Of a stretch of DNA of 64,000 bases, positions 6,542 to 20,095 are shown piece after piece. This stretch comes from Bacillaceae bacterium (lineage in GTDB: Bacteria > Bacillota > Bacilli > JACDOE01). The notes under the pieces are model-generated. The model did no database searches and was not told the DNA's origin. It saw only the letters and a program-made list of their open reading frames with translations. The position numbers and the translations under genes are program-made. Within the stretch, counting starts at the first letter, position 1; each line of letters opens with the position of its first letter. The DNA is taken from positions 809,205 to 873,204 of the forward strand of contig JACDOE010000001.1 of NCBI GenBank assembly GCA_017656255.1. Reading direction: 5' to 3'.

Positions 6542-7486
6542 TTAACCCAGTTTATCTGCTACGTTCAGCCGGGAACCCACTCCCCGCACAAAATCGCCCA
6601 CCGGCATTCTCCGTTTGCCCGCCGGTTGCAACTCTTTAAGTGTGATGGCTCCCTGCCCCGTTGCCACCACGACGCCTTCTTCGCTGACCTGGACAATGGT
6701 TCCCGGTTCATGCCCGTCCCATTTTTCACCATCGGGCGTTACCTCGGCCCACCAGATCTTTAAAACCTGTCCATTCCAGCGGGTAAAAGCAACCGGCCAC
6801 GGATTTAATCCCCTCACCTGATTGTAAATGGCGATGGCCGGTTTTTCCCAGTCAATTTGTTCATCTTCCCGCTTGATGTTGTAGGCAAAAGTTGCTTTTG
6901 CTTCGTCCTGGGGGATCGGTGTGATTTCACCATTAACCAGACGTGGAATAGTTTCTCCCAGAAGCTCTGCCCCGATTTCACTCAAACGGTCATGCAGGCT
7001 CCCGACCGTATCCCTGTCATCAATGGGAACAGCCCGCTGGCTGAGAATATCTCCGGCATCCAGCCGGTCAATCATGTACATGATTGTGATGCCGGTTTTC
7101 TTTTCTCCATCGATGATCGCTTTATGTATGGGGGCCCCTCCCCGGTATTTCGGCAACAGGGAAGCATGGACATTTATACAGCCGAAACGGGGAAATGCCA
7201 GTATTTTTGAGGGCACGATCTGTCCGTAAGCGGCGGTGACTATCAATTCCGGATTCAGATCCAGTACTTCTTTCACGGCATCGTCCGCCGATAATTTTTC
7301 CGGCTGCAGCACTTTAATACCGTGTTCAAGGGCGGCTACTTTCACCGGTGGCGGGGTCAGCACTTTTTTTCTTCCCTTCGGCCGGTCCGGCTGGGTGACA
7401 ACGGCCACGACCTCATAACCATCCCGGATCAATCGTTCAAGTGAAGGGACACTAAAATCCGGTGTTCCCATGAATATGATTCGCAC
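6542..7486 (-). CDS. fmt: Methionyl-tRNA formyltransferase
   Basis: Transfers formyl from 10-formyl-THF to initiator Met-tRNA. The N-terminal catalytic domain opens with [14 protein letters not shown]. The folate-binding and catalytic loop is [16 protein letters not shown] (Asn and His of the family), followed by [17 protein letters not shown]. The C-terminal OB-fold tRNA-binding domain includes [13 protein letters not shown] place the start at the GTG at 7486 (reading RIIFMG next) because GGGGGAG is about 8 nt upstream. An in-frame GTG 9 nt further up sits on top of the Shine-Dalgarno. It is paired with def, the deformylase. Confidence 0.95.
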
Positions 7487-7523
7487 TGCGGTCACTCCCC
7501 CTCAATCCGTAATTGACTCGTAT

Positions 7524-8000
7524 TTACTCGTTTTTTTCTCTTTCTTCCGGTTCCGTATAAGTTCGAACGGCAAGATCGATAAACAGCACCCCGTTCAGAT
7601 GATCCAGTTCATGTTGCATAGCCCGGGCAAAGAAATCCTCGCCTTCAATGGTAAATTCATTGCCATGGCGATCCTGGGCTTTCATTTTCACTTTTTTGGC
7701 GCGCAGGACATCTCCCATTAAACCCGGGATGCTGAGACAGCCTTCCGGTCCCAGTTGCTCACCTTCTTTTGCCACAATTTCCGGATTGATGAACTCAACC
7801 AGTCCATCACCCACATCCACGACAAAGACGCGTTTCAGAATACCCACCTGTGGTGCTGCCAGGCCGACACCATTGGCATGATACATGGTTTCGGCCATAT
7901 CATCCAGTAATTTATGAAGATTTTGATTGAATTTTTTTACGGTGACACTTTTTTCTCTCAACACGGGGTCGGGATGTTTGACAATCTTACGAATACCCAT
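7524..8000 (-). CDS. def: Peptide deformylase
   Basis: Metal hydrolase that removes the N-formyl group from nascent proteins. All three active-site motifs are present: GVGLAAPQVG (motif 1, G-x-G-L-A-A-x-Q), EGCLSIPG (motif 2, metal-binding Cys) and QHELDHLNG (motif 3, HExxH). 158 residues, in the range of the short type 1 (Def/DefB) proteins. ATG preceded by GGAGG. It lies between priA and fmt, as in B. subtilis. Confidence 0.97.
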   Translation of the reverse strand: MGIRKIVKHPDPVLREKSVTVKKFNQNLHKLLDDMAETMYHANGVGLAAPQVGILKRVFVVDVGDGLVEFINPEIVAKEGEQLGPEGCLSIPGLMGDVLRAKKVKMKAQDRHGNEFTIEGEDFFARAMQHELDHLNGVLFIDLAVRTYTEPEEREKNE

Positions 8001-8055
8001 TCATTTCGCCTCCATTTACAGAAAAAATAAATAGATGAATCCACGATCTTCTTTC

Positions 8056-10515
8056 TCACATGAGATACTGCGGATCGACATCGACGACTATCTGCACGTC
8101 ACCGTGGGAGCGATCCTGTTCAAATTCCCGTACCAGCTGTCCGGCCTGATCCGGAATACCTTGCTCCGAACCGTATTTTAACACACACTGGTAACGATAT
8201 CTATTTTTGATCCGGGCAATCGGGGATGGGACCGGACCCAGAATGGCGACCGTTTTCGGTAGTGCTGATCCGAGGCGGCGGGCGAATTGATCGGCCGTTT
8301 TCACCACTGTCTGTTCGTGTTCATGTATGAATGTAAACAGAATCAATCGGCTGAAAGGCGGGTATTGATTGCGCATCCGTTCTCCGATCTCTTTTTGATA
8401 GAAACCGGTATAGTCATGACCGCGGGCAAACTGGATGCTGTAATGTTCCGGGGTATAAGTCTGAATCACCACTTCCCCTTTAATCTGATGCCGCCCGGCT
8501 CTGCCTCCGACCTGGGTCAGGAGCTGAAACGTTTTTTCCGAAGAACGAAAATCAGGCAGATGCAACACGGTGTCTGCCGCAATGACACCTACCAGGGAAA
8601 CCCGTTCAAAATCCAGTCCCTTGGCGATCATCTGGGTACCCAGCAGCACATCCCCTTTTCCTTCTTTAAAACGGGACAGCAGGGCCTCATGGGCTCCTTT
8701 GCGAGACGTCGTATCCACATCCATCCGGATCACGCGTATGCCCGGAAAATGACGGGACAGTTCTTCTTCCACCCGCTGGGTTCCGGTACCGAAATAACGA
8801 ATGTGCCGGCTGGAACAGCAGGGACACTGATCCGGCTCTTTTTCGGCATATCCGCAGTAGTGGCAGCGCATCGCCCGGTTTTTCCGGTGATAGGTAAGAG
8901 AGATATCGCAGTGAGGGCACTCCATCACATGACCGCAGGAACGGCACATCACGAATGTGGAAAACCCTCTTCGATTTAAAAACAGAACCATTTGTTCCCC
9001 GCGATCCAGTCGATCTTCAATCTTCTCCGTCAGGACCCGGCTGAACATGGATCTGTTTCCGTTTCTAAGTTCCTCTCTCATATCGACCAGCTGGACTTCT
9101 GGCATGGGACGATTGCCGATCCGTTCTTTCAGGGTCAGTAATGTTATTTTTCCTTCCCTTGCTCTATGATATGCTTCCAGTGAGGGAGTGGCACTTCCCA
9201 GCAGCACAACGGCCTGATGATATTTCCCGCGGTACATGGCTATGTCTCGTGCATGGTAGCGGGGGTTTTCTTCCTGTTTGTAGGAAGATTCATGTTCTTC
9301 ATCGATAATGATCAGGCCCAGGTTCTCAAATGGGGCGAATACCGCAGACCGGGCTCCGATGGCGACCCTCGCCTTTCCTTCCTTGATCCGACGCCATTCG
9401 TCAAACCGTTCACCTCCGGAGAGACGGCTGTGAAGGACGGCCACATCTTCACCGAATCTTCCTTTGAAGCGTTCCACCATCTGCGGGGTTAACGAAATTT
9501 CCGGTACGAGCACAATCGCCTGTTTTCCCAGTTCCAGCACTCTTTCGATCACCCGCAGGTAAATTTCCGTTTTCCCGCTCCCGGTGACACCGTGCAACAG
9601 ATACGGATGAAAACGGCCCTGATCGACAGCAGGAAGGATCTGATGTATCACCTGTTTCTGTTCTGCCGTTAATTGAGGCGGCTTTTGCCGTTCGTAGCGG
9701 ATGCCTTCATAGGGGTTGCGGTAGGACTGAACCTCTTCGATTTTGAGAAATCCTTTCTCAACCAGGCGATTGACGGTCTGGCGGATCGTACCCACTTCCG
9801 CAAGCAACTCTTTCAAACGCACACTTCCCATGCCGGGCCGGTGCAGAAAATACCTGAGAATTTCCTTCTGTTTGACCGCCTGTGCCGGAAGCTCGTCAAT
9901 CACCGCCGGCAATTGATTTTCCTCAAGCAACAGGGTCACCACGGAAACCGTTTTTCGGGTCACCCGGTCTTTCACTTCCCGTTCAATGAGGAGCCAGCCC
10001 TCTTTCACACCCTGTTCCAGCCAGTCTTGATCCCCCGGACATTTTTGCAGGAGATGCTTCCATTCTACGTGTTTGATTTCTTTTAACAGTTTGAACGCCT
10101 GCTCTCCTTCTCCGGTCAAAAACACCTGTGTTTCAATGCGCTCCAGTTGTTCGGGGTCCAGTGACACCCATTTTTCATAACGGGAACGCATCACAGCCGG
10201 GACCATACTCTCCAGAGCCGTAAATTTATAGCAAATATAGCGGCGGCTCATCCAGATCCCCAGTTGAACCAGCTCTTCCGTGAGAGGGGGTTCCGGGTCC
10301 GGTACTTCTTCCACATCCCGCAGGCGATCCGGCCCGACAGCCCCGTCGGTATCATCCGTGACAGCAATGACGAACCCCTGAATTTTGCGTGGTCCGAAAG
10401 GCACGATCACCCGACTCCCGACCTGAATGCTGTTCGTCAGGTGATCCGGTATCCGGTAATCAAAGGTTTTGTCCGTATTGAGTACGGGAACATCCACAAC
10501 AACTCTTGCAATCAT
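8056..10515 (-). CDS. priA: Primosomal replication restart helicase PriA
   Basis: 3'-5' superfamily 2 helicase that reloads the replisome at stalled forks. The N-terminal 3'-DNA-binding domain (1-100) and winged-helix region are followed by Walker A GVTGSGKT (309-316) and Walker B DEEH (405-408). Eight zinc-binding cysteines sit at 524, 527, 533, 536, 551, 554, 564 and 567. Then come the helicase C motifs (IAKGLDFERVSLVGV, QVGGRAGR) and the C-terminal domain. 819 residues, full length. The start overlaps the coaBC stop as ATGA. Confidence 0.97.
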   Translation of the reverse strand: MIARVVVDVPVLNTDKTFDYRIPDHLTNSIQVGSRVIVPFGPRKIQGFVIAVTDDTDGAVGPDRLRDVEEVPDPEPPLTEELVQLGIWMSRRYICYKFTALESMVPAVMRSRYEKWVSLDPEQLERIETQVFLTGEGEQAFKLLKEIKHVEWKHLLQKCPGDQDWLEQGVKEGWLLIEREVKDRVTRKTVSVVTLLLEENQLPAVIDELPAQAVKQKEILRYFLHRPGMGSVRLKELLAEVGTIRQTVNRLVEKGFLKIEEVQSYRNPYEGIRYERQKPPQLTAEQKQVIHQILPAVDQGRFHPYLLHGVTGSGKTEIYLRVIERVLELGKQAIVLVPEISLTPQMVERFKGRFGEDVAVLHSRLSGGERFDEWRRIKEGKARVAIGARSAVFAPFENLGLIIIDEEHESSYKQEENPRYHARDIAMYRGKYHQAVVLLGSATPSLEAYHRAREGKITLLTLKERIGNRPMPEVQLVDMREELRNGNRSMFSRVLTEKIEDRLDRGEQMVLFLNRRGFSTFVMCRSCGHVMECPHCDISLTYHRKNRAMRCHYCGYAEKEPDQCPCCSSRHIRYFGTGTQRVEEELSRHFPGIRVIRMDVDTTSRKGAHEALLSRFKEGKGDVLLGTQMIAKGLDFERVSLVGVIAADTVLHLPDFRSSEKTFQLLTQVGGRAGRHQIKGEVVIQTYTPEHYSIQFARGHDYTGFYQKEIGERMRNQYPPFSRLILFTFIHEHEQTVVKTADQFARRLGSALPKTVAILGPVPSPIARIKNRYRYQCVLKYGSEQGIPDQAGQLVREFEQDRSHGDVQIVVDVDPQYLM

Positions 10516-11780
10516 TCAGCCGACGCTCCCAGCCCCAGCTTCAACGCTTCATCCCAGATTTTGTCGGCCAGTTCCCTTTTGGACAGCCGGGGGAGATTTT
10601 GGGAGCGACCGTTTCGGTCGATCAGGGTGACGATATTGGAGTCTGTTTCAAAGCCAGCGCCCTCTTCCAAAATATTATTGGCGACAATGAGATCCAGGTT
10701 CTTTTTCTGGATTTTCATTTTCGCATAATGCTCGACATCATTGGATTCCGCAGCAAACCCGATCAAGAACTGACTGGTTTTCCTCTTTCCCAGGGTTTTC
10801 AGGATGTCCGGTGTCCGTTCCATTTCCACAGTGAATGCGCCGTCCCCTTTTTTAATTTTCTTCTCAGACACCTGAGCCGGTCGGTAATCGGCAACGGCAG
10901 CCGCTTTGGCGACGGCATCTATATCATCATAAACGGATAACACGGCATCATACATGTTCTGCGCCGATTCCGTCTGAATAACCTGTACCCCATCCGGCGG
11001 AACCAGGTGAGTTTTTCCGGTAATCAGAATCACATCGGCCCCCCGGTCCCGGGCGGCTTCAGCCAGGGCATAACCCATTTTTCCCGTGGAACGGTTGGTA
11101 AAAAAGCGCACCGGGTCCACAGCCTCCCGGGTGGGTCCGGCCGTCACCAGTATTTTTAACCCCTTGAGGTCCTTTGTCACAGGCTTCGATTCACCCATGG
11201 TTCCGTTTTCCCCGGATAAAAACCGGTCGATCGTATGCAGAATCTGTTCCGGCTCTTCCAGACGACCTTTGCCGACATAACCACAGGCCAGTTGTCCTTC
11301 GCCCGGTTCAATAAAATGGTAACCCCAGTCGTACAACTTTTTCATGTTTTCCTTGACCGCCGGATGATCATACATATGCACGTTCATGGCCGGTGCAATA
11401 AACACCGGTGCTCTTACAGCGAGAAGGGTGGTGGTCAGCATATCATCGGCGATGCCGCCCGCCAGTTTGCCCAGAAAATTGGCCGTTGCCGGTGCGATGA
11501 TAACGAGATCGGCCCGATCTGCCAGATCGATATGGGAGACAACCCTGGGATCCCGTTCTTCAAAGGTGTCGAGGATCACATGATTCCGTGACAGGGTCTG
11601 GAAGGTTAACGGCTGTACGAACCTGGCGGCAGATTCAGTCATGATCACATGAAGATCCGCTCCGGCCTGGGTTATCTTACTGGCAAGAGCGGCTGCTTTA
11701 TAGGCGGCAATACCACCTGTGACGCCGAGCAATACCGTTTTTCCATCTAAATTGTGATCATACGGGTTCTGATTTATCAT
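10512..11780 (-). CDS. coaBC: Bifunctional phosphopantothenoylcysteine decarboxylase / phosphopantothenate-cysteine ligase
   Basis: Two consecutive CoA biosynthesis steps in one protein. The N-terminal flavoprotein CoaC half starts GKTVLLGVTGGIAAYKA and has PAMNVHMYDHP and the flexible lid ACGYVGKGRLEEP with its catalytic Cys. The CoaB half begins KILVTAGPTREAVDPVRF and includes AAVADYRP and a KIKK lysine motif for CTP-dependent ligation. The preferred start is the ATG at 11780 with AGAGGT about 10 nt upstream; a GTG 9 nt earlier is too near that site. It overlaps priA by 4 nt. An intrinsic terminator separates it from upstream rpoZ. Confidence 0.96.
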   Translation of the reverse strand: MINQNPYDHNLDGKTVLLGVTGGIAAYKAAALASKITQAGADLHVIMTESAARFVQPLTFQTLSRNHVILDTFEERDPRVVSHIDLADRADLVIIAPATANFLGKLAGGIADDMLTTTLLAVRAPVFIAPAMNVHMYDHPAVKENMKKLYDWGYHFIEPGEGQLACGYVGKGRLEEPEQILHTIDRFLSGENGTMGESKPVTKDLKGLKILVTAGPTREAVDPVRFFTNRSTGKMGYALAEAARDRGADVILITGKTHLVPPDGVQVIQTESAQNMYDAVLSVYDDIDAVAKAAAVADYRPAQVSEKKIKKGDGAFTVEMERTPDILKTLGKRKTSQFLIGFAAESNDVEHYAKMKIQKKNLDLIVANNILEEGAGFETDSNIVTLIDRNGRSQNLPRLSKRELADKIWDEALKLGLGASAE

Positions 11781-11820
11781 TGATCTCACAACCTCTCATC
11801 TACATCACGCTGAGTTATGT

Positions 11821-11850
11821 AAAAAAATAACAACCCGTTCAGGTTGTTAT
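11821..11850 (-). terminator. Intrinsic terminator downstream of rpoZ
   Basis: On the minus strand ATAACAACC pairs with GGTTGTTAT around the 6-nt loop TGAACG, followed by seven T residues. It lies 15 nt after the rpoZ stop and before coaBC, so gmk-rpoZ transcripts probably end or are attenuated here. The coaBC-priA-def genes then need read-through or their own promoter. Confidence 0.85.
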
Positions 11851-11865
11851 CCTGTCACGCTCGAT

Positions 11866-12063
11866 TTATTTCCTCTGTTCATAGGAAACTTTACCTGTCA
11901 CAATCTCTTCAAGCGCAACCCCTACAAATTTTTTGGACTTCGGTTCTTCGATGAGAACTCTGGCGTTGTCTCTCAATTGACGTGCCCTTTTTGAAGCGAT
12001 GGACACCAGTGTATATTTACTGTCTACTTTTTTAACCAGTTCATCAATAGAAGGGTAAAGCAT
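11866..12063 (-). CDS. rpoZ: RNA polymerase omega subunit
   Basis: Small RNA polymerase subunit that assists assembly of beta prime. 65 residues; the segment IDELVKKVDSKYTLVSIASK followed by RARQL matches the conserved omega N-terminal helices, and the tail KKFVGVALEEIVTGKVSYE is typical of Bacilli. ATG with GGGAGG upstream. It directly follows gmk, as in most bacteria, with 22 nt between them. Confidence 0.96.
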   Translation of the reverse strand: MLYPSIDELVKKVDSKYTLVSIASKRARQLRDNARVLIEEPKSKKFVGVALEEIVTGKVSYEQRK

Positions 12064-12085
12064 GTCAATAACCTCCCTTGTATTA

Positions 12086-12700
12086 TTAAGTGGAATGAAT
12101 CCAGTTCTTGAACCGGGAAATCTGCCGTTCTTTTTTCAGGTGTTCTGCTGTGATGATGGCTTCAATCTGCTGAACCGCCAGTTCAACCCGGTCATTCACC
12201 ACCACATAGTGATAACGATCCATCATATCAATTTCCTTTTTGGCCGCCTCCAGCCTGTTGTTAATGGTCTCGTCGGTTTCAGTCCCTCTTCCTTTAATCC
12301 GGTTGCGAAGCTCTTCGAGATCAGGCGGAGCCAGAAAGATAAATACGCCTTCCGGAAATTTTTCTTTAACCTGCAGGGCACCCTGGACCTCAATTTCGAG
12401 GATAACATCCTTCCCCTGCTCAAGGGTATCTTCAACAAACTGCCTGGGTGTTCCGTAATAGTTTCCCACATATTCGGCCCATTCGAGCAGCTGGTTGTTG
12501 CGGATCATGTTCTCAAATTCTTCCCGGCTTTTGAAGAAGTAATTGATGCCTTCTCTTTCCCCTTCCCGGGGTGCCCGGGTTGTGGCTGAAACCGAATAGA
12601 CCAGTTCAGGCACTTGCCTGCGGAGTTCGGCACAGACCGTCCCTTTTCCCACACCGGAGGGACCGGACAATACAAAAAGAATTCCCCTTTGCGGCTCCAT
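12086..12700 (-). CDS. gmk: Guanylate kinase
   Basis: Phosphorylates GMP to GDP with ATP. P-loop [10 protein letters not shown] near residues 13-22. The GMP-binding segment [19 protein letters not shown], the lid-adjacent [20 protein letters not shown] and the C-terminal RLEAAKKEI are typical. 204 residues. ATG with GAGGAGG upstream, 13 nt after remA. The remA-gmk-rpoZ order is conserved in B. subtilis. Confidence 0.97.
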
Positions 12701-12713
12701 CTGTTACCTCCTC

Positions 12714-12974
12714 TTATTCTTCGTCGTCTACGTCTTTTGAACCCAGCCGCTGCGCAACTGTTTCCGGTTGTACGGCTGAAAGAATAACGTGATCGCTGTC
12801 CATGATGATCACAGCCCGTGTCCTTCTTCCATAAGTGGCATCTATCAGCATGTTTCGATCGCGTGCTTCCTGGATGATTCGTTTAATGGGAGCGGATTCA
12901 GGGCTTACGATAGAAATAATGCGATTGGCCGAAACAATATTTCCGAAACCAATATTAATCAATTTGATCGACAT
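12714..12974 (-). CDS. remA: Extracellular matrix regulatory protein RemA
   Basis: DNA-binding activator of biofilm matrix and osmoprotection genes in B. subtilis (RemA/YlzA, DUF370). 86 residues. The family signature is clear: [20 protein letters not shown], then [12 protein letters not shown] and [19 protein letters not shown] preceded by AGGAGG. Between yicC and gmk as in B. subtilis. Target genes cannot be inferred from this window. Confidence 0.95.
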
Positions 12975-13061
12975 GTCAAACCTCCTACCACAGACACCTC
13001 TACACCTTCAGATGACCTGATTCATCTGTTCTTATACTGGATTATAGAGGAAAAACAAAAT

Positions 13062-13943
13062 TTATTCTATATTTTGCACCTGTTCTTTCATTTTTTCCAG
13101 TTCCGCCTTTAATTCTACGACTTTGCGGCTGATCACAAGGTCGTTGGCCTTAGAACCGATGGTATTCACTTCCCGGTTCATCTCCTGGAGTAAAAAGTCC
13201 AGTTTCCGCCCGACGGGATCAGACAGATCCAGCGTCTCCAGAAATTGAGCACAATGGCTTTCCAGCCGTGTCAACTCTTCATCAATATCAGCCCTGTCGG
13301 CAAAAACAGCCACTTCCGTCATCAGACGGGATTCATCCGCCTCCATCTGATTATGTAAAAAATCAGTGACCCGCTGATATACTCTTTCGCGATAATCTTC
13401 CACCACGACCGGTGCCCTGTCTTTAACGTCCTGCAACAGGTTTTGAACCGTCTCGACTCTGCCGACAAGATCTTCTCTCAATTGTTTCCCTTCTGCCTTT
13501 CTCATATCCAGCAGTCGGTCGCAGGCCATGGTAACGGCACGTAAAAGCGGCTCCCTGTACGAATCGAGATCTTCCACATGCTCATTGATAGTCAGTACCT
13601 CGGGAAATTGCATCAGATCCAGGGCGGTGAGCGTGTCTTTTAAATTATATCTGCCATTCATCTGTTCATGGATTTGATGATATTCATCCGCCAGATTCCA
13701 GTTGACTGTCAGGGAGTTGGAAAGCCGTTCAGGGTCTTCAATCGTCACATATACATCGACACGGCCCCGCTTCACTTTCTCCTGAACTTTTTTCTTGATC
13801 GGATCTTCGAGGGAGACAAACTCTCTCGGCATCCGAACGGAAATCTCACAGAAACGATGATTAACGGAACGCATCTCAACCTGAAACTTTTTCTGATCTT
13901 CGCTGTACTCAGCCTGACCATAACCTGTCATGCTTTTAATCAT
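13062..13943 (-). CDS. yicC: YicC/YloC family endoribonuclease-like protein
   Basis: YicC-family protein (B. subtilis YloC); members have been reported to act as endoribonucleases. N-terminus (start)IKSMTGYGQAEY, central LTRLESHCAQFLETL, and C-terminal VGRKLDFLLQEMNREVNTIG followed by SKA are family hallmarks. I chose the ATG at 13943 (293 residues), with GGAAGTGA upstream. This gives the canonical N-terminus and leaves 17 nt after dapF; an upstream in-frame start at 13973 would overlap dapF and lies against its Shine-Dalgarno. Confidence 0.93.
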   Translation of the reverse strand: MIKSMTGYGQAEYSEDQKKFQVEMRSVNHRFCEISVRMPREFVSLEDPIKKKVQEKVKRGRVDVYVTIEDPERLSNSLTVNWNLADEYHQIHEQMNGRYNLKDTLTALDLMQFPEVLTINEHVEDLDSYREPLLRAVTMACDRLLDMRKAEGKQLREDLVGRVETVQNLLQDVKDRAPVVVEDYRERVYQRVTDFLHNQMEADESRLMTEVAVFADRADIDEELTRLESHCAQFLETLDLSDPVGRKLDFLLQEMNREVNTIGSKANDLVISRKVVELKAELEKMKEQVQNIE

Positions 13944-14843: not shown

Positions 14844-17621
14844 CTATTTTACAAGAAATGAGTAAAAATTGTTAGCCCATCTCGCTGGTGTTTTGCGAAA
14901 CATTTTGAACAGAATCAAATTGAGAATTCCCGCCAGAAAAGTGGGAATCGCTGAAAAGATGAGAATGATGATCCATTCTTCGATACCGAGGGAAACCGTT
15001 TTAAACACGGGCTGAAGTTGATCAATATAAATGACGCCGAGCATCAGAATGACGGAGACGATAACGGAAAGCACCAGCCACTTGTTTTCCAGCAGGTTAC
15101 GGTGAAAAACCGATTTTTCACTGCGACAGTCAAAAACATGGATCAACTGGGCCATGACCAGGGTGGTAAACGCCATTGTCTGCGCTTTCACCAATTGATC
15201 AGGCTCCTGTTGAAGCGAAAGCCAGAAAACAGCCAGCGTCGAAATGCCGATTAAAAATCCCCGGCTGACAATTTTCCATCCCAGTCCACGGGAGAAAACA
15301 CTCTCGTTTTTCGGCCGGGGCGGGCGATTCATCACATCTTCTTCGGCTGAATCAACACCGAGGGCCATCGCCGGCAACCCGTCCGTGACCAGGTTGACCC
15401 ACAGAATCTGGATCGGTACCAGGGGCAACGGCATCCCGGCCATCATCGCCATAAACATCACCAGAATCTCTCCGACATTGGATGCCAGCAGGTAACGAAT
15501 AAACTTGCGGATATTGTCATAGATGTTGCGCCCTTCTTCAATGGCGGCCTTGATCGTGGCAAAATTGTCATCCGCCAGGATCAGTGACGATGCTTCCCGG
15601 GTTACATCGGTCCCGGTAATTCCCATGGCAACGCCAATATCGGCCGCTTTGATGGCCGGTGCATCATTCACGCCATCGCCGGTCATGGCCACCACATGTC
15701 CCCGGCTCTGCAGCGCCTTTACAATACGCAACTTGTGTTCCGGAGACACCCGGGCATAGACGCGGATATCATTCACTTTTTCTTTCAATTCTGTATCGGA
15801 CATATTATATAAATCCTGTCCATTTACTGTCAACCCGCCGGAATCCAGGATTCCCAGCTGAGCGGCAATGGCCTCTGCCGTTGCCTGATGGTCTCCGGTG
15901 ATCATGACGGTCCGGATACCGGCCTGCCGGCAATGGGCGATGGCTTCCCTGACTTCCCGGCGCGGCGGATCGATCATGCCCATCAACCCGACAAACACAA
16001 GGTTTCGTTCGGCATCCCGTTCACTTTTGACCTGTTCACCGGCGGCCAGATCCCGGTAGGCTACCGCCAGGTTACGCAGGGCCTTTCCCGCCAACTGATC
16101 ATTCATGTGCAGGATTTTCTGTCTCAGGGACGGGGTCATCCGCTGTATCCTTCCCTGATACAACAGATAGGTGCATTTCTGCAACAATACATCCGGCGCT
16201 CCTTTTGCCACGACCCGGCGCTGTCCTTTCTGACGTTCGGCGATGACTGACATCATTTTGCGCGTCGAGTCAAAGGGAAACTCTTCCACGCGCCGCCATT
16301 CCCTGAGGACATCTTCCTTACGGATGCCGGCTTTGCGGGCGGCTACCAGCAGGGCCCCTTCGGTGGGGTCTCCCTTGATATCCCAGCCATTTCCCTGCTT
16401 TTTGCGAAACACAGAACGCTTTTGCTCATGTATCAGTTCACTGTTATTGCAGAGTACTCCGTAAAGTAGCAGTTGATACAGCGGTGAATTTTTCCGGATC
16501 GAAATTTCTTTTCCATCCTGAAAAAAGTTGCCTGCCGGGTGATACCCGCTCCCTGTCACCTCCACCGGATTACCCCGGTCCGTCCAGAGATGGGTCACCG
16601 TCATTTTATTCTGGGTCAGGGTCCCGGTTTTATCGGAACAGATAACCGTGGCACACCCCAGGGTTTCTACGGAAGGTAGTTTTCTGACGATGGCCCTTCG
16701 TTTGATCATGCGTTGCACGCCGAGGGCGAGGGCGATGGTCACAATGGCCGGCAGTCCTTCCGGGATGGCAGCTACCGCAAGGCTGACTCCCGCCAGAAAC
16801 ATTTGATAGGGACTGTGTCCGTGCCAGATGCCGGCTACCACCACCAACACCGTCAGGGCAATGGCGACGCCGACCAGCACTTTCCCCAGTTGTTCCAGAC
16901 GTTTCTGCAGCGGGGTCTGCAGAGAATCGGTAGACTGCAGCAGATCGGCGATTTTTCCCATCTCCGTGGACATGCCGGTGGCCACCACAACCCCGCGGCC
17001 GGAACCCTGAGTGACCATGGTTCCCATAAACGCCATATTTTCCTGATCGCCCAGGGGAATGTTCGGTTTGTCAATGGGCTGATCATGTTTCTGAACAGAC
17101 AGGGATTCTCCGGTCAGTGCTGATTCTTCGATCTGCAGGCCTTTTGCCGACAGAATCCGAATATCCGCCGGAACCCGGTCCCCGCCTTCAAACACGACAA
17201 TATCTCCTGGGACCAGTTCCTTCGCCGCTATTTCCTGCATGTTGCCGTCCCGAATAACTCTGGCCATGGGAGCAGTCAATTCCTTCAGGGCCTTCAGCGA
17301 TTTTTCCGCCCGAAATTCCTGCACAAATCCAAGGATACCGTTGATCACCACGATGGCAATGATGGTGATCGCATCCGTATATTCCCCGAGCAGGCCGGAG
17401 ATCAACGTGGCCGCCAGTAATACCAGCACCATAAAATCTTTAAATTGATTCAAAAGGAGGGTAAAAGGCGAGATCCGGTCCTTTTCTTTAATCTCATTTT
17501 CGCCGGTTTTATCCAGTCTCTTTTGCGCTTCTTTTGACGTGAGCCCTTTTCCCGCATCTGATTTCAATATGGCAAGCACTTCTGTTTTGTCCAGGCTATA
17601 CCATTCACGTTGTTTTCGCAC
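14844..17621 (-). CDS. Calcium-transporting P-type ATPase (SERCA-like, PIIA)
   Basis: Cation pump of the SERCA type, 925 residues, similar in place and size to B. subtilis YloB. Cation_ATPase_N domain (about 5-75), TGES (170-173) in the actuator domain, PEGLP (287-291) in M4, phosphorylated Asp330 in SDKTGTLT. Then come GDPTEGALLVAA (nucleotide binding), MITGDHQATA, the hinge MTGDGVNDAPAIK and six C-terminal membrane segments. PEGLP in M4, and NVGE and a VNLVTDGLPA segment in M5-M6, fit Ca2+ coordination. GTG start with AAAGGAGG upstream. Ca2+ specificity is inferred from motifs. Confidence 0.93.
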   Translation of the reverse strand: MRKQREWYSLDKTEVLAILKSDAGKGLTSKEAQKRLDKTGENEIKEKDRISPFTLLLNQFKDFMVLVLLAATLISGLLGEYTDAITIIAIVVINGILGFVQEFRAEKSLKALKELTAPMARVIRDGNMQEIAAKELVPGDIVVFEGGDRVPADIRILSAKGLQIEESALTGESLSVQKHDQPIDKPNIPLGDQENMAFMGTMVTQGSGRGVVVATGMSTEMGKIADLLQSTDSLQTPLQKRLEQLGKVLVGVAIALTVLVVVAGIWHGHSPYQMFLAGVSLAVAAIPEGLPAIVTIALALGVQRMIKRRAIVRKLPSVETLGCATVICSDKTGTLTQNKMTVTHLWTDRGNPVEVTGSGYHPAGNFFQDGKEISIRKNSPLYQLLLYGVLCNNSELIHEQKRSVFRKKQGNGWDIKGDPTEGALLVAARKAGIRKEDVLREWRRVEEFPFDSTRKMMSVIAERQKGQRRVVAKGAPDVLLQKCTYLLYQGRIQRMTPSLRQKILHMNDQLAGKALRNLAVAYRDLAAGEQVKSERDAERNLVFVGLMGMIDPPRREVREAIAHCRQAGIRTVMITGDHQATAEAIAAQLGILDSGGLTVNGQDLYNMSDTELKEKVNDIRVYARVSPEHKLRIVKALQSRGHVVAMTGDGVNDAPAIKAADIGVAMGITGTDVTREASSLILADDNFATIKAAIEEGRNIYDNIRKFIRYLLASNVGEILVMFMAMMAGMPLPLVPIQILWVNLVTDGLPAMALGVDSAEEDVMNRPPRPKNESVFSRGLGWKIVSRGFLIGISTLAVFWLSLQQEPDQLVKAQTMAFTTLVMAQLIHVFDCRSEKSVFHRNLLENKWLVLSVIVSVILMLGVIYIDQLQPVFKTVSLGIEEWIIILIFSAIPTFLAGILNLILFKMFRKTPARWANNFYSFLVK

Positions 17622-17817: not shown

Positions 17818-18321
17818 ATGTACGTTTATCTGTGGATGACAGTCAATGCTTTGATTATTCTGGTGACCACATTTTATATCTGGATGCTTGATCCGCCAGA
17901 TCTAAAACTGGTTCTACTGGCTCAGTTTCTGGGACAGGCGGCTTTTCTTTTATTCCTGGTTAATGTCAACATGTACTTTATTTTTCTGGTGATTCGAAAA
18001 TCACCGATCAGAAGCTGGAAAGTAAGGCTGGCTGCCGTGTCCCGAATCATGATGAAGTTCCATATTCCGATCGGATTGACGGGAACGGTGCTGATTCTTT
18101 TTCATGCCGGTCTTCTTTTAAACGTTGCCGGTTCATATCTCGGTTATGTTCACCCGAAGCTGGTCACAGGTTACACGGCTCTCTTAATGCTCGCCGTCAC
18201 TTTGTTCGGCGGATGGTTGCGGCACAGGCGGGCTTCCGGTTTTCGCAGAAAATTCCATCTTTCCGCCGCCCTGATATTTGCCGCGGTTGTCCTGATTCAT
18301 CTGTTTTCGTCCATCAATTGA
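17818..18321 (+). CDS. Five-helix membrane protein with two H-X13-H helices (putative di-haem cytochrome b-like)
   Basis: I do not recognise a named family with certainty. 167 residues, five predicted membrane segments (about 4-24, 31-59, 83-107, 114-133, 147-164), with basic cytoplasmic-type loops at 60-80 and 135-146. Helix 3 has H82 and H96, helix 5 has H147 and H161; each pair is 14 residues apart on one helix face. That is the haem-ligand spacing of ferric reductase, NOX and MsrQ-type domains, which also use alternating helices. No flavin domain is attached. ATG at 17818 follows GGGAG by about 6 nt; a GTG 3 nt earlier is possible. It lies divergent to the Ca-ATPase and 37 nt before rqcH, probably cotranscribed. 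Function is inference only. Confidence 0.8.
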   Translation: MYVYLWMTVNALIILVTTFYIWMLDPPDLKLVLLAQFLGQAAFLLFLVNVNMYFIFLVIRKSPIRSWKVRLAAVSRIMMKFHIPIGLTGTVLILFHAGLLLNVAGSYLGYVHPKLVTGYTALLMLAVTLFGGWLRHRRASGFRRKFHLSAALIFAAVVLIHLFSSIN

Positions 18322-18358: not shown

Positions 18359-20095
18359 ATGGCATTTGACGGAATCGTAACCCGGGCCGTGACCCGCGAA
18401 CTGTCGGAGGAACTTGAAACCGGCCGGATATCTAAAATCTATCAACCGCGAGAGATGGATCTGTGTTTTGTGATCCGAATGCAAAAGGAAAATAAAAAAT
18501 TGTTTATATCAGCCAATCCTTCATTTCCCCGTATTCATCTGACTGAAAAGACGTTCTCCAACCCGCTCAATCCGCCGATGTTTTGCATGCTTTTGCGCAA
18601 ACATTGTGAAGGCGGGATCATCGAACGGATTCGGCAGGTTGACATGGAGCGGATCATTCATATCGACATCAAAACACGGGATGAACTGGGCGACTGGAAG
18701 GTTGTCCGGCTGATTGTGGAAATCATGGGGCGGCACAGTAATATCATCCTGATCGACCCGGATCGTAATCTGATCCTGGACGGGATACATCACGTCACCC
18801 CGGCCGTCAGCCGTTACCGGACCATTTTGCCCGGAAAAGACTACGTGGCACCCCCGGAACAGAACAAAGCCAGTCCACTGGACGTGGATCGGGAACAGTT
18901 TATCCGCGGGATGGATTTAAATGCAGGAAAAATGGATAAGCAAATCGTACAGCGTTTTTCCGGAATCAGCCCTTTGATTGCAAGGGAAATCCTGCACCGG
19001 GCCGGACTGCCGACCCGGGAAAATCTCTGGAGAGAATTTTCACAGCTGATGCACGACATCAAGGAACACCGATATGAACCGATACTTGTCCACGGGCAGG
19101 AGAAAAGTTATTTTTCCGTGATTCGTTTGACGCACGTAACAGATGGACTTGAACCGGATCGTATCAAGACATTCCCTACTGTAAGCCGTCTTCTGGAAAC
19201 CTATTATCATGAACGGGCGGAACGGGATGCGGTGCGGCAGAGAGTTCACGATTTGACCCGCTTTTTGACCAATGAAATCAACAAGAACCAGAAAAAGATC
19301 AAAAAGCTGGAACAGACCATGCGTGACGCCGAAACGGCGGACAAGTGGAAACTGTATGGAGAACTGATCACCGCATACATGCACCAGATTAAAAAAGGCG
19401 ACAAATCGGTGCGTGTGATTAATTATTATGAGGAGGACCAGCCGGAAATCGACATCCCGCTGGACCCGGAAAAAAGTCCGGCAGACAATGCCCAGCATTA
19501 TTTCAAGAAATACAACAAGACTAAAACCGGTCTTAAAGCTGCCCGGGAACAACTGACCAAAACCAGAGAGGAAATTGATTATCTCGAAGGCGTGCTGGTT
19601 CAGCTGGATCAGGCGACGATGAAAGAAGTGGAAGATGTCCGGGAAGAACTGGAGGAACAGGGGTACCTGCGCAAACGCAAGCCGGGAAAACAGGATCGCC
19701 GCAAGAAAAAAGAAAAACCCGTGCCGGAACGGTTCGTATCATCGGAAGGCATCGAGATCCTGGTGGGTAAAAATAACAAACAGAACGAATATCTGACCAA
19801 CCGACTGGCGTCCTCCCGCGATACCTGGCTTCATACGAAAGATATTCCGGGGTCCCATGTGGTGATCCGGGCGGAACAGTTCGGGGAACAGACCCTCCTG
19901 GAAGCAGCAGAACTGGCCGCTTACTTCAGCAAAGCGCGACAGTCCAGCCAGGTTCCCGTTGATTATACTCTGATCAAGCATGTCAAAAAACCGAACGGAA
20001 GCAAACCCGGGTATGTCATCTATGATAATCAGAAAACAGTTTATGTCACACCGGATGAGGCCACTCTTCGCCGGTTGAAAAAACAGGAAGCCTGA
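18359..20095 (+). CDS. rqcH: Ribosome quality control protein RqcH (NFACT family, YloA/FbpA)
   Basis: Binds 50S subunits carrying stalled peptidyl-tRNA and directs addition of C-terminal alanine tails. 578 residues. NFACT-N domain begins MAFDGIVTRAVTRELSEEL; the HhH-like and long coiled-coil middle domains lie near 170-420 (for example ETYYHERAERDAVRQRVHDL). A basic linker (RKRKPGKQDRRKKKEK) precedes the NFACT-R domain, which has the signature NKQNEYLTNRLASSRDTWLH followed by TKDIPGSHVVIR. ATG with GAGGTGA upstream. It adjoins the yloB-yloC-like genes as in B. subtilis. Older annotations call it fibronectin-binding protein. Confidence 0.96.
   Translation: MAFDGIVTRAVTRELSEELETGRISKIYQPREMDLCFVIRMQKENKKLFISANPSFPRIHLTEKTFSNPLNPPMFCMLLRKHCEGGIIERIRQVDMERIIHIDIKTRDELGDWKVVRLIVEIMGRHSNIILIDPDRNLILDGIHHVTPAVSRYRTILPGKDYVAPPEQNKASPLDVDREQFIRGMDLNAGKMDKQIVQRFSGISPLIAREILHRAGLPTRENLWREFSQLMHDIKEHRYEPILVHGQEKSYFSVIRLTHVTDGLEPDRIKTFPTVSRLLETYYHERAERDAVRQRVHDLTRFLTNEINKNQKKIKKLEQTMRDAETADKWKLYGELITAYMHQIKKGDKSVRVINYYEEDQPEIDIPLDPEKSPADNAQHYFKKYNKTKTGLKAAREQLTKTREEIDYLEGVLVQLDQATMKEVEDVREELEEQGYLRKRKPGKQDRRKKKEKPVPERFVSSEGIEILVGKNNKQNEYLTNRLASSRDTWLHTKDIPGSHVVIRAEQFGEQTLLEAAELAAYFSKARQSSQVPVDYTLIKHVKKPNGSKPGYVIYDNQKTVYVTPDEATLRRLKKQEA

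Follow-up and report, generated by a model that had tools for sequence, protein, structure and literature searches.

What does a small membrane protein with two pairs of histidines do, and is its work linked to that of the ribosome quality control gene behind it? The question is raised by a stretch of 64,000 nucleotides from a Bacillaceae bacterium (the whole of which is called the window here). On its + strand, positions 17818..18321 (ATG start, stop codon included) encode a 167-aa four-histidine membrane protein, which, like its gene, is designated HX; its delimitation follows from the ORF list and the homologue alignment. A GTG lies one codon upstream of the ATG (ORF 17815/17818-18321), and the ATG at 17818 is the point from which homologues align. 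The genome contains a single HX copy. Upstream lies a divergent gene (14844..17621, − strand, from the ORF list), the product of which we take to be a P-type ATPase (YloB-like). Downstream, after a gap of 37 nt and on the same strand, follows an rqcH-like gene (18359..20095, +), to which the EfbA and RqcH_arch models give sub-threshold matches. Since the + strand shows no terminator-like site in the interval from HX to rqcH, the two could be cotranscribed in this genome; still, both neighbours were judged to stand outside the system discussed below.

Two histidine pairs, each with 13 residues between its members (H-x13-H), within hydrophobic stretches were found in HX alone among the 153 ORFs of the window (≥80 aa, six frames). 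Two such pairs at any position were reached by 182 of 20,000 shuffles of HX's own amino acid composition.

The four histidines and their conservation

Homologues were taken from 31 named loci, from 7 of 61 genomes and from 29 of the 398 class genomes (the genome of the window organism being included in both latter sets), and from the taxonomic family of genome G402, in which 31 of 111 genomes gave a hit and 16 of these 31 were fetched. The final alignment comprised 71 sequences, that is, the window protein and 70 others, ∼20 of them being remote relatives with weak matches. Outside it were a duplicate (L001), broken or partial genes (L031, L032 and L046), a split copy (L144), two loci in the wrong frame (L047 and L048), re-fetched genes, and the unfetched part of the 31 family hits. 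Two working alignments of 20 (A1) and 28 (A2) rows were chosen from the sequences available. The nearest named relatives are ∼50–55% identical to the window protein. None of 60 relatives compared belongs to the same genus, family or order as the window organism; within these homologue sets, the organism is isolated. Disrupted, split or C-terminal-remnant HX genes were present in L031, L032, L046/L075 and L144, which suggests that HX is dispensable in some genomes.

In the first-pass annotation, five hydrophobic helices had been recognized, with H82 and H96 on helix 3 (TM3) and H147 and H161 on helix 5 (TM5), the members of both pairs being 14 residues apart. The ORF and the AlphaFold2 model analyzed with DSSP confirmed this arrangement, and the homologues agreed with it: all four histidines, each pair separated by exactly 13 residues, were present in 71 of 71 aligned sequences. 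The invariance across homologues that the annotation had proposed to check was thus observed; the four histidines, kept at 13/13 spacing throughout, are not a product of chance. On TM3, His82 (codon 18061..18063, +) is the predicted cytoplasm-side and His96 (18103..18105, +) the predicted outer-side haem ligand; on TM5, the corresponding predicted ligands are His147 (18256..18258, +) and His161 (18298..18300, +), respectively. G118 and G132 were likewise invariant. Midway between the two TM5 histidines lies Phe154 (18277..18279, +), a phenylalanine in 64 of the 71 sequences and a candidate inter-haem aromatic by analogy with Phe215 of NOX2. An amphipathic cytoplasmic segment (residues 65–80; 18010..18057, +), helical in the model according to DSSP, carries conserved basic residues (K68 in 61, K80 in 53 and R76 in 47 of the 71 sequences). 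That basic residues mark the cytoplasmic helix ends had also been noticed before, and indeed basic stretches precede both H82 and H147.

Kinship with the ferric reductase domain

The window protein matched no Pfam family above the curated cut-off and no NCBIfam family above its cut-off. The ferric reductase domain (FRD) model, PF01794, was absent from its Pfam matches at E ≤ 10, the sole match being unrelated and weak. When applied to 20 HX members, the PF01794 model found one at E 0.48; among the remote relatives, L038 reached E 0.0056 with it, still short of the cut-off. Comparison of profiles by hhalign, which the first-pass annotation had suggested, gave a different picture. A profile of 35 HX family members aligned with one built from short PF01794 proteins of related genomes (17 of 20 such loci, L092, L096 and L103 being dropped because of length or wrong frame) with a probability of 91% and an E of 9.7e-7 (for a single pair) over 91 columns, as opposed to ≤0.2% for the controls DUF418, ArsB, MFS and oxidoreductase. 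In this alignment, H82 and H96 fall on the first and second TM3 histidines of FRD and H147 on the first of TM5, whereas H161 meets the fourth ligand, the second histidine of TM5, across a one-residue gap. This gap has its counterpart in the spacing: TM3 has x13 in both families, but TM5 has x13 in 71 of 71 HX sequences and x12 in 19 of 19 PF01794 proteins of related genomes (19 of the 20 loci, L103 being dropped), of which 16 carry HHHH and three RHHH. Cytochrome b6 was considered as the parent family and rejected at an hhalign probability of 0.3%, obtained with a thin PF13631 alignment (Neff 1.8). A second four-histidine family with 13/13 spacing (178–201 aa; L052–L059, L061–L064 and L068) proved to be a remote homologue of HX (hhalign 98.5%). 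As profile homology to FRD is present, while the PF01794 model does not recognize the window protein and the TM5 spacing deviates, the HX family is best called a divergent, remote sister of the FRD superfamily, which should work like a short FRD.

The AlphaFold2 model (28-row natural-sequence alignment) had a mean pLDDT of 90 and a pTM of 0.82. Its helices (residues 2–23, 30–61, 65–80, 82–108, 113–137 and 141–163) correspond to five predicted membrane helices plus the amphipathic segment 65–80. In VIA-align, the best matches of the model were cytochrome b561 (Z 12.6; 3.1 Å, 148 residues) and Dcytb (Z 12.1); the other matches listed included, besides unrelated helical bundles, b6 (Z 10.4), SpNOX (Z 9.9; 5.3 Å), NOX5 (Z 9.8; ∼6 Å), CcmF (Z 9.3) and superoxide oxidase (CybB; Z 9.1). 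Z values of helical bundles below ∼13 can be generic, and designed helical bundles reach 11.4 against the HX model, with unrelated bundles scoring like SpNOX and NOX5; the structural comparison is therefore supportive only. Foldseek found no match to the model at E ≤ 0.001, and the family profile found nothing among solved structures (PDB chains) at E ≤ 10.

Stand-alone FRD proteins, namely short bFRE and YedZ, have already been described, and a few of the short forms retain all four histidines, according to PMC3591440. HX resembles the short bFRE (PF01794) in having two His pairs on alternate helices, in its similar size and in that the short ones have no flavin domain either; it differs from them in the two features that set it apart above, TM5 spacing and recognition by PF01794. 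MsrQ/YedZ, again, belongs to the FRD superfamily as a small haem protein of the membrane that lacks a flavin domain of its own, but the first histidine of YedZ is replaced by arginine (both points from PMC3591440), whereas His82 is invariant in HX; moreover, no msrP-like gene was recognized among the HX neighbours scanned, which are a subset of all neighbours. In NOX2, the haem ligands are His101, 115, 209 and 222, and electron transfer is aided by Phe215, which sits between the haems (PMC9568551 and PMC3591440). SpNOX and eukaryotic NOX share with HX the four histidines on two alternate helices and an aromatic (Phe215 in NOX2; PMC9568551) that in HX would likewise lie between the haems, but HX has no FAD/NADPH domain, and while its TM3 histidines are 14 residues apart as in NOX2, those of TM5 are spaced by 14 residues, compared with 13 in NOX2. 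With cytochrome b561, Dcytb and CybB, which are likewise small, membrane-bound and devoid of a flavin domain, the comparison was one of overall fold scores. The menaquinol cytochrome b6-like subunit (PF13631) has H-x13-H on its first histidine helix, but x14 (read by eye) in the second pair, as opposed to x13 in HX.

Nitrogen-oxide genes in genomes with HX

Among the genes that accompany HX in other genomes are those for DUF2249, which we take to be identical with COG4309. For COG4309, relevance to NO reductase function has been proposed (PMC1274295), and DUF2249 genes of a haloarchaeon rise under denitrification (PMC11218638). Across 398 genomes of the class, DUF2249 was present in 81, qNorB (PF22085) in 40 and a haem-copper-like protein in 67. 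When all 29 class hits to HX were considered, DUF2249 accompanied 12 (p 0.006) and qNorB six (p 0.058). The eight strict genomes with a close HX, a cut that was set after the table had been seen and that includes one genome (G070) with HX in pieces, contained DUF2249 in seven (p 8e-5), qNorB in four (p 0.005) and the haem-copper-like protein in seven cases (p 2e-5). The 21 weaker class hits showed no enrichment (DUF2249 in 5, p 0.43; qNorB in 2, p 0.65). More than half of these 21 belong to the longer, 178–201 aa, four-histidine family.

In the named HX genomes, DUF2249 was present in 22 of 24, both exceptions being Paenibacillus MAGs with divergent copies; this count is based on 24 of the 31 named loci (left out were L002, L011, L014, L021, L024, L031 and L032). 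As a control for ancestry, the comparison was confined to the 111 genomes of a single taxonomic family: DUF2249 was present in 29 of the 31 that carry HX, versus 44 of the 80 that do not (p 5e-5, a value in which kinship below the family level remains). The HX family was present without DUF2249 in five genomes (G019, G418, G420, G487 and G519).

Physical linkage was found in a few lineages. HX closes an operon in L070, where it is preceded by two genes for DUF2249, one for a haem-copper-oxidase-like (HCO-like) protein of 412 aa and one for DUF59 (PF01883), with successive gaps of 26, 15, 18 and 4 nt. The HCO-like protein (L070:7559-8797) had a weak COX1 match below cut-off and matched no NCBIfam family at E ≤ 0.01. 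Relatives of it occur in DUF2249/DUF59 operons and account for the 67 of 398 class genomes given above. In L030/L084, qNorB, DUF2249 and HX follow each other on one strand; in L072, DUF2249 comes directly after HX, with qNorB ∼6 kb upstream, and in L075, from the same genus, DUF2249 follows the HX copy in pieces. YgbA_NO is the convergent neighbour of HX in L028, and YgbA lies ∼3 kb away in L015 and, from a remnant HX, in L032. Altogether, nitrogen-oxide genes were within the locus in 6 of 38 loci (a count that takes in the HX locus of the window, six loci with flanks of 1.5 kb and broken copies) and in none of 16 further HX regions of 14–15 kb each, so that linkage is a minority pattern. Most HX loci have unrelated neighbours, which change between lineages, and the HX locus of the window has no nitrogen-oxide gene as neighbour. 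The genome of the window organism does contain such a cluster, located on another contig (C9; cluster at 7085–13796 within L083, which is C9 6000–24000): two DUF2249 genes, a haem-copper-like gene and DUF59 lie on one strand, qNorB is divergent, and a TIGR04053 radical SAM gene follows.

Upstream regions were scanned with Crp/Fnr, FNR and NsrR consensus strings. TGTGA-N6-TCACA-like sites were found upstream of HX in 9 of 48 regions versus 11 of 248 control upstream regions (p 0.0016), the scan covering 33 loci and then 15 of the 16 family loci, and the controls coming solely from named and 61-genome loci. Sites with 9 of 10 positions, 61–81 nt before HX, accounted for 8 of the 33 loci (Anoxybacillus, Fredinandcohnia and other Bacillus-type lineages, Ammoniphilus) and one of the 15; collapsed by lineage (by eye), the signal of the 33 loci was weaker (p 0.019). 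Similar sites lie around the nitrogen-oxide clusters of these genomes, and the cluster in L091 comes with a Crp/Fnr-type regulator (matches below cut-off). Upstream of HX in the window, there was no Crp/Fnr-like site (best 7 of 10) and no NsrR site. A palindrome noticed there by eye, at ∼−41 relative to what may be a −10 box, was dropped, its five-base arms being expected by chance, and a sigma-70 scan found promoter-like sites no more often than in shuffles.

Alternative readings and a proposed function

The gene order in the window invites the reading that HX is a partner in ribosome quality control, joined to RqcH in one operon for a shared function under stress, and the close, codirectional spacing without an intervening + strand terminator-like site agrees with it. 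The first-pass annotation had likewise entertained rqcH as a partner and proposed a survey of the linkage. However, RqcH was absent, at E ≤ 1e-4, from all 65 stretches around homologues (flanks of ∼1.5–10 kb, some overlapping; other named and 61-genome loci, 12 wider and 16 family regions, a set without a foreign rqcH as positive control). The pairing is seen in the window only and the neighbours of HX vary between lineages, so the linkage is not conserved; a functional link was rejected, and such a partnership is extremely improbable. By co-occurrence, and by adjacency in a few lineages, the HX family tends to track nitrogen-oxide genes, not rqcH.

Another reading is that HX is a general, quinone-linked di-haem oxidoreductase that works in the manner of cytochrome b561 or of the superoxide oxidase (CybB) of E. 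coli: electrons would be exchanged between the menaquinone pool and small oxidants or metals on the outside, and the NO correlation would simply reflect larger respiratory genomes. Cytochrome b561 and Dcytb are the top structural matches, superoxide oxidase is among them as well, neighbours are unrelated and changing at most loci, and HX occurs in genomes without DUF2249. Yet DUF2249 enrichment persists within a single taxonomic family, and the L070 operon, the adjacency in several lineages and the Crp/Fnr-like sites all point to nitrogen oxides; furthermore, among FRD, cytochrome b6 and the four control families, the profile homology is to FRD. We regard this reading as unlikely, though it deserves to be taken seriously. 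The histidines might also serve metal binding or haem chaperoning rather than electron transfer, with which the appearance of CcmF among the structural matches would be compatible. The histidine spacing (13/13, on alternate helices), the TM5 aromatic and the FRD match, however, are more in keeping with electron-transfer cytochromes and make such a role highly improbable.

As predicted from sequence and structural model, HX is very probably a two-haem protein that conducts electrons through the membrane. The reading preferred here, to which we assign a probability of roughly 0.6, is that HX is a stand-alone membrane shuttle which moves electrons over two b haems and serves nitrogen-oxide metabolism in several lineages. 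The suggestion that the protein is an FRD-like di-haem protein standing alone, without a flavin domain, is supported, with haem binding predicted, by the invariant histidines, the FRD profile and the structural neighbours. For its mechanism, from haem binding and ligand pairing to the direction of flow, the electron donor and the acceptor, and for whatever role the window copy might have with NO, we infer the following. Two b haems would be stacked across the membrane, one held by H82 and H147 near the cytoplasm, the other by H96 and H161 near the outside, with F154 between them, and electrons would cross the membrane singly. Because HX has no flavin domain built in, its electrons should be supplied by a quinol or by a reductase separate from it, most likely menaquinol or a cytoplasmic enzyme. 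The acceptor would be at the outer face or within the membrane; the L070 operon makes the HCO-like protein a candidate partner. Pairing of the two is not obligate, as 67 of 398 class genomes have an HCO-like protein and only 29 any HX hit. Among genomes of the Bacilli type, HX would find its main use in settings of nitrogen-oxide respiration or detoxification. A more specific proposal is that HX is a dedicated di-haem shuttle from menaquinol to a DUF2249/DUF59-assisted haem-copper-like complex, a new NO-reducing or NO-sensing complex of Bacilli. It is a speculative one, which we think quite unlikely to hold in full; if it were true, HX would be an overlooked component of nitric oxide respiration.

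Stand-alone FRD proteins as such are known already; we rate as new the four-histidine 13/13 variant with its nitrogen-oxide tie in these bacteria, since no description of such a family tied to nitrogen-oxide genes was found in the open-access literature searched. The analysis removes a misleading association with rqcH. One rule, H-x13-H twice, defines a small, predicted di-haem b family and sets it apart from the classic ferric-reductase domains compared here. The NO link is testable in cultured Neobacillus or Calidifontibacillus, and HX may turn out to be a missing electron carrier in Gram-positive denitrification, alongside DUF2249, DUF59 and haem-copper-like proteins.
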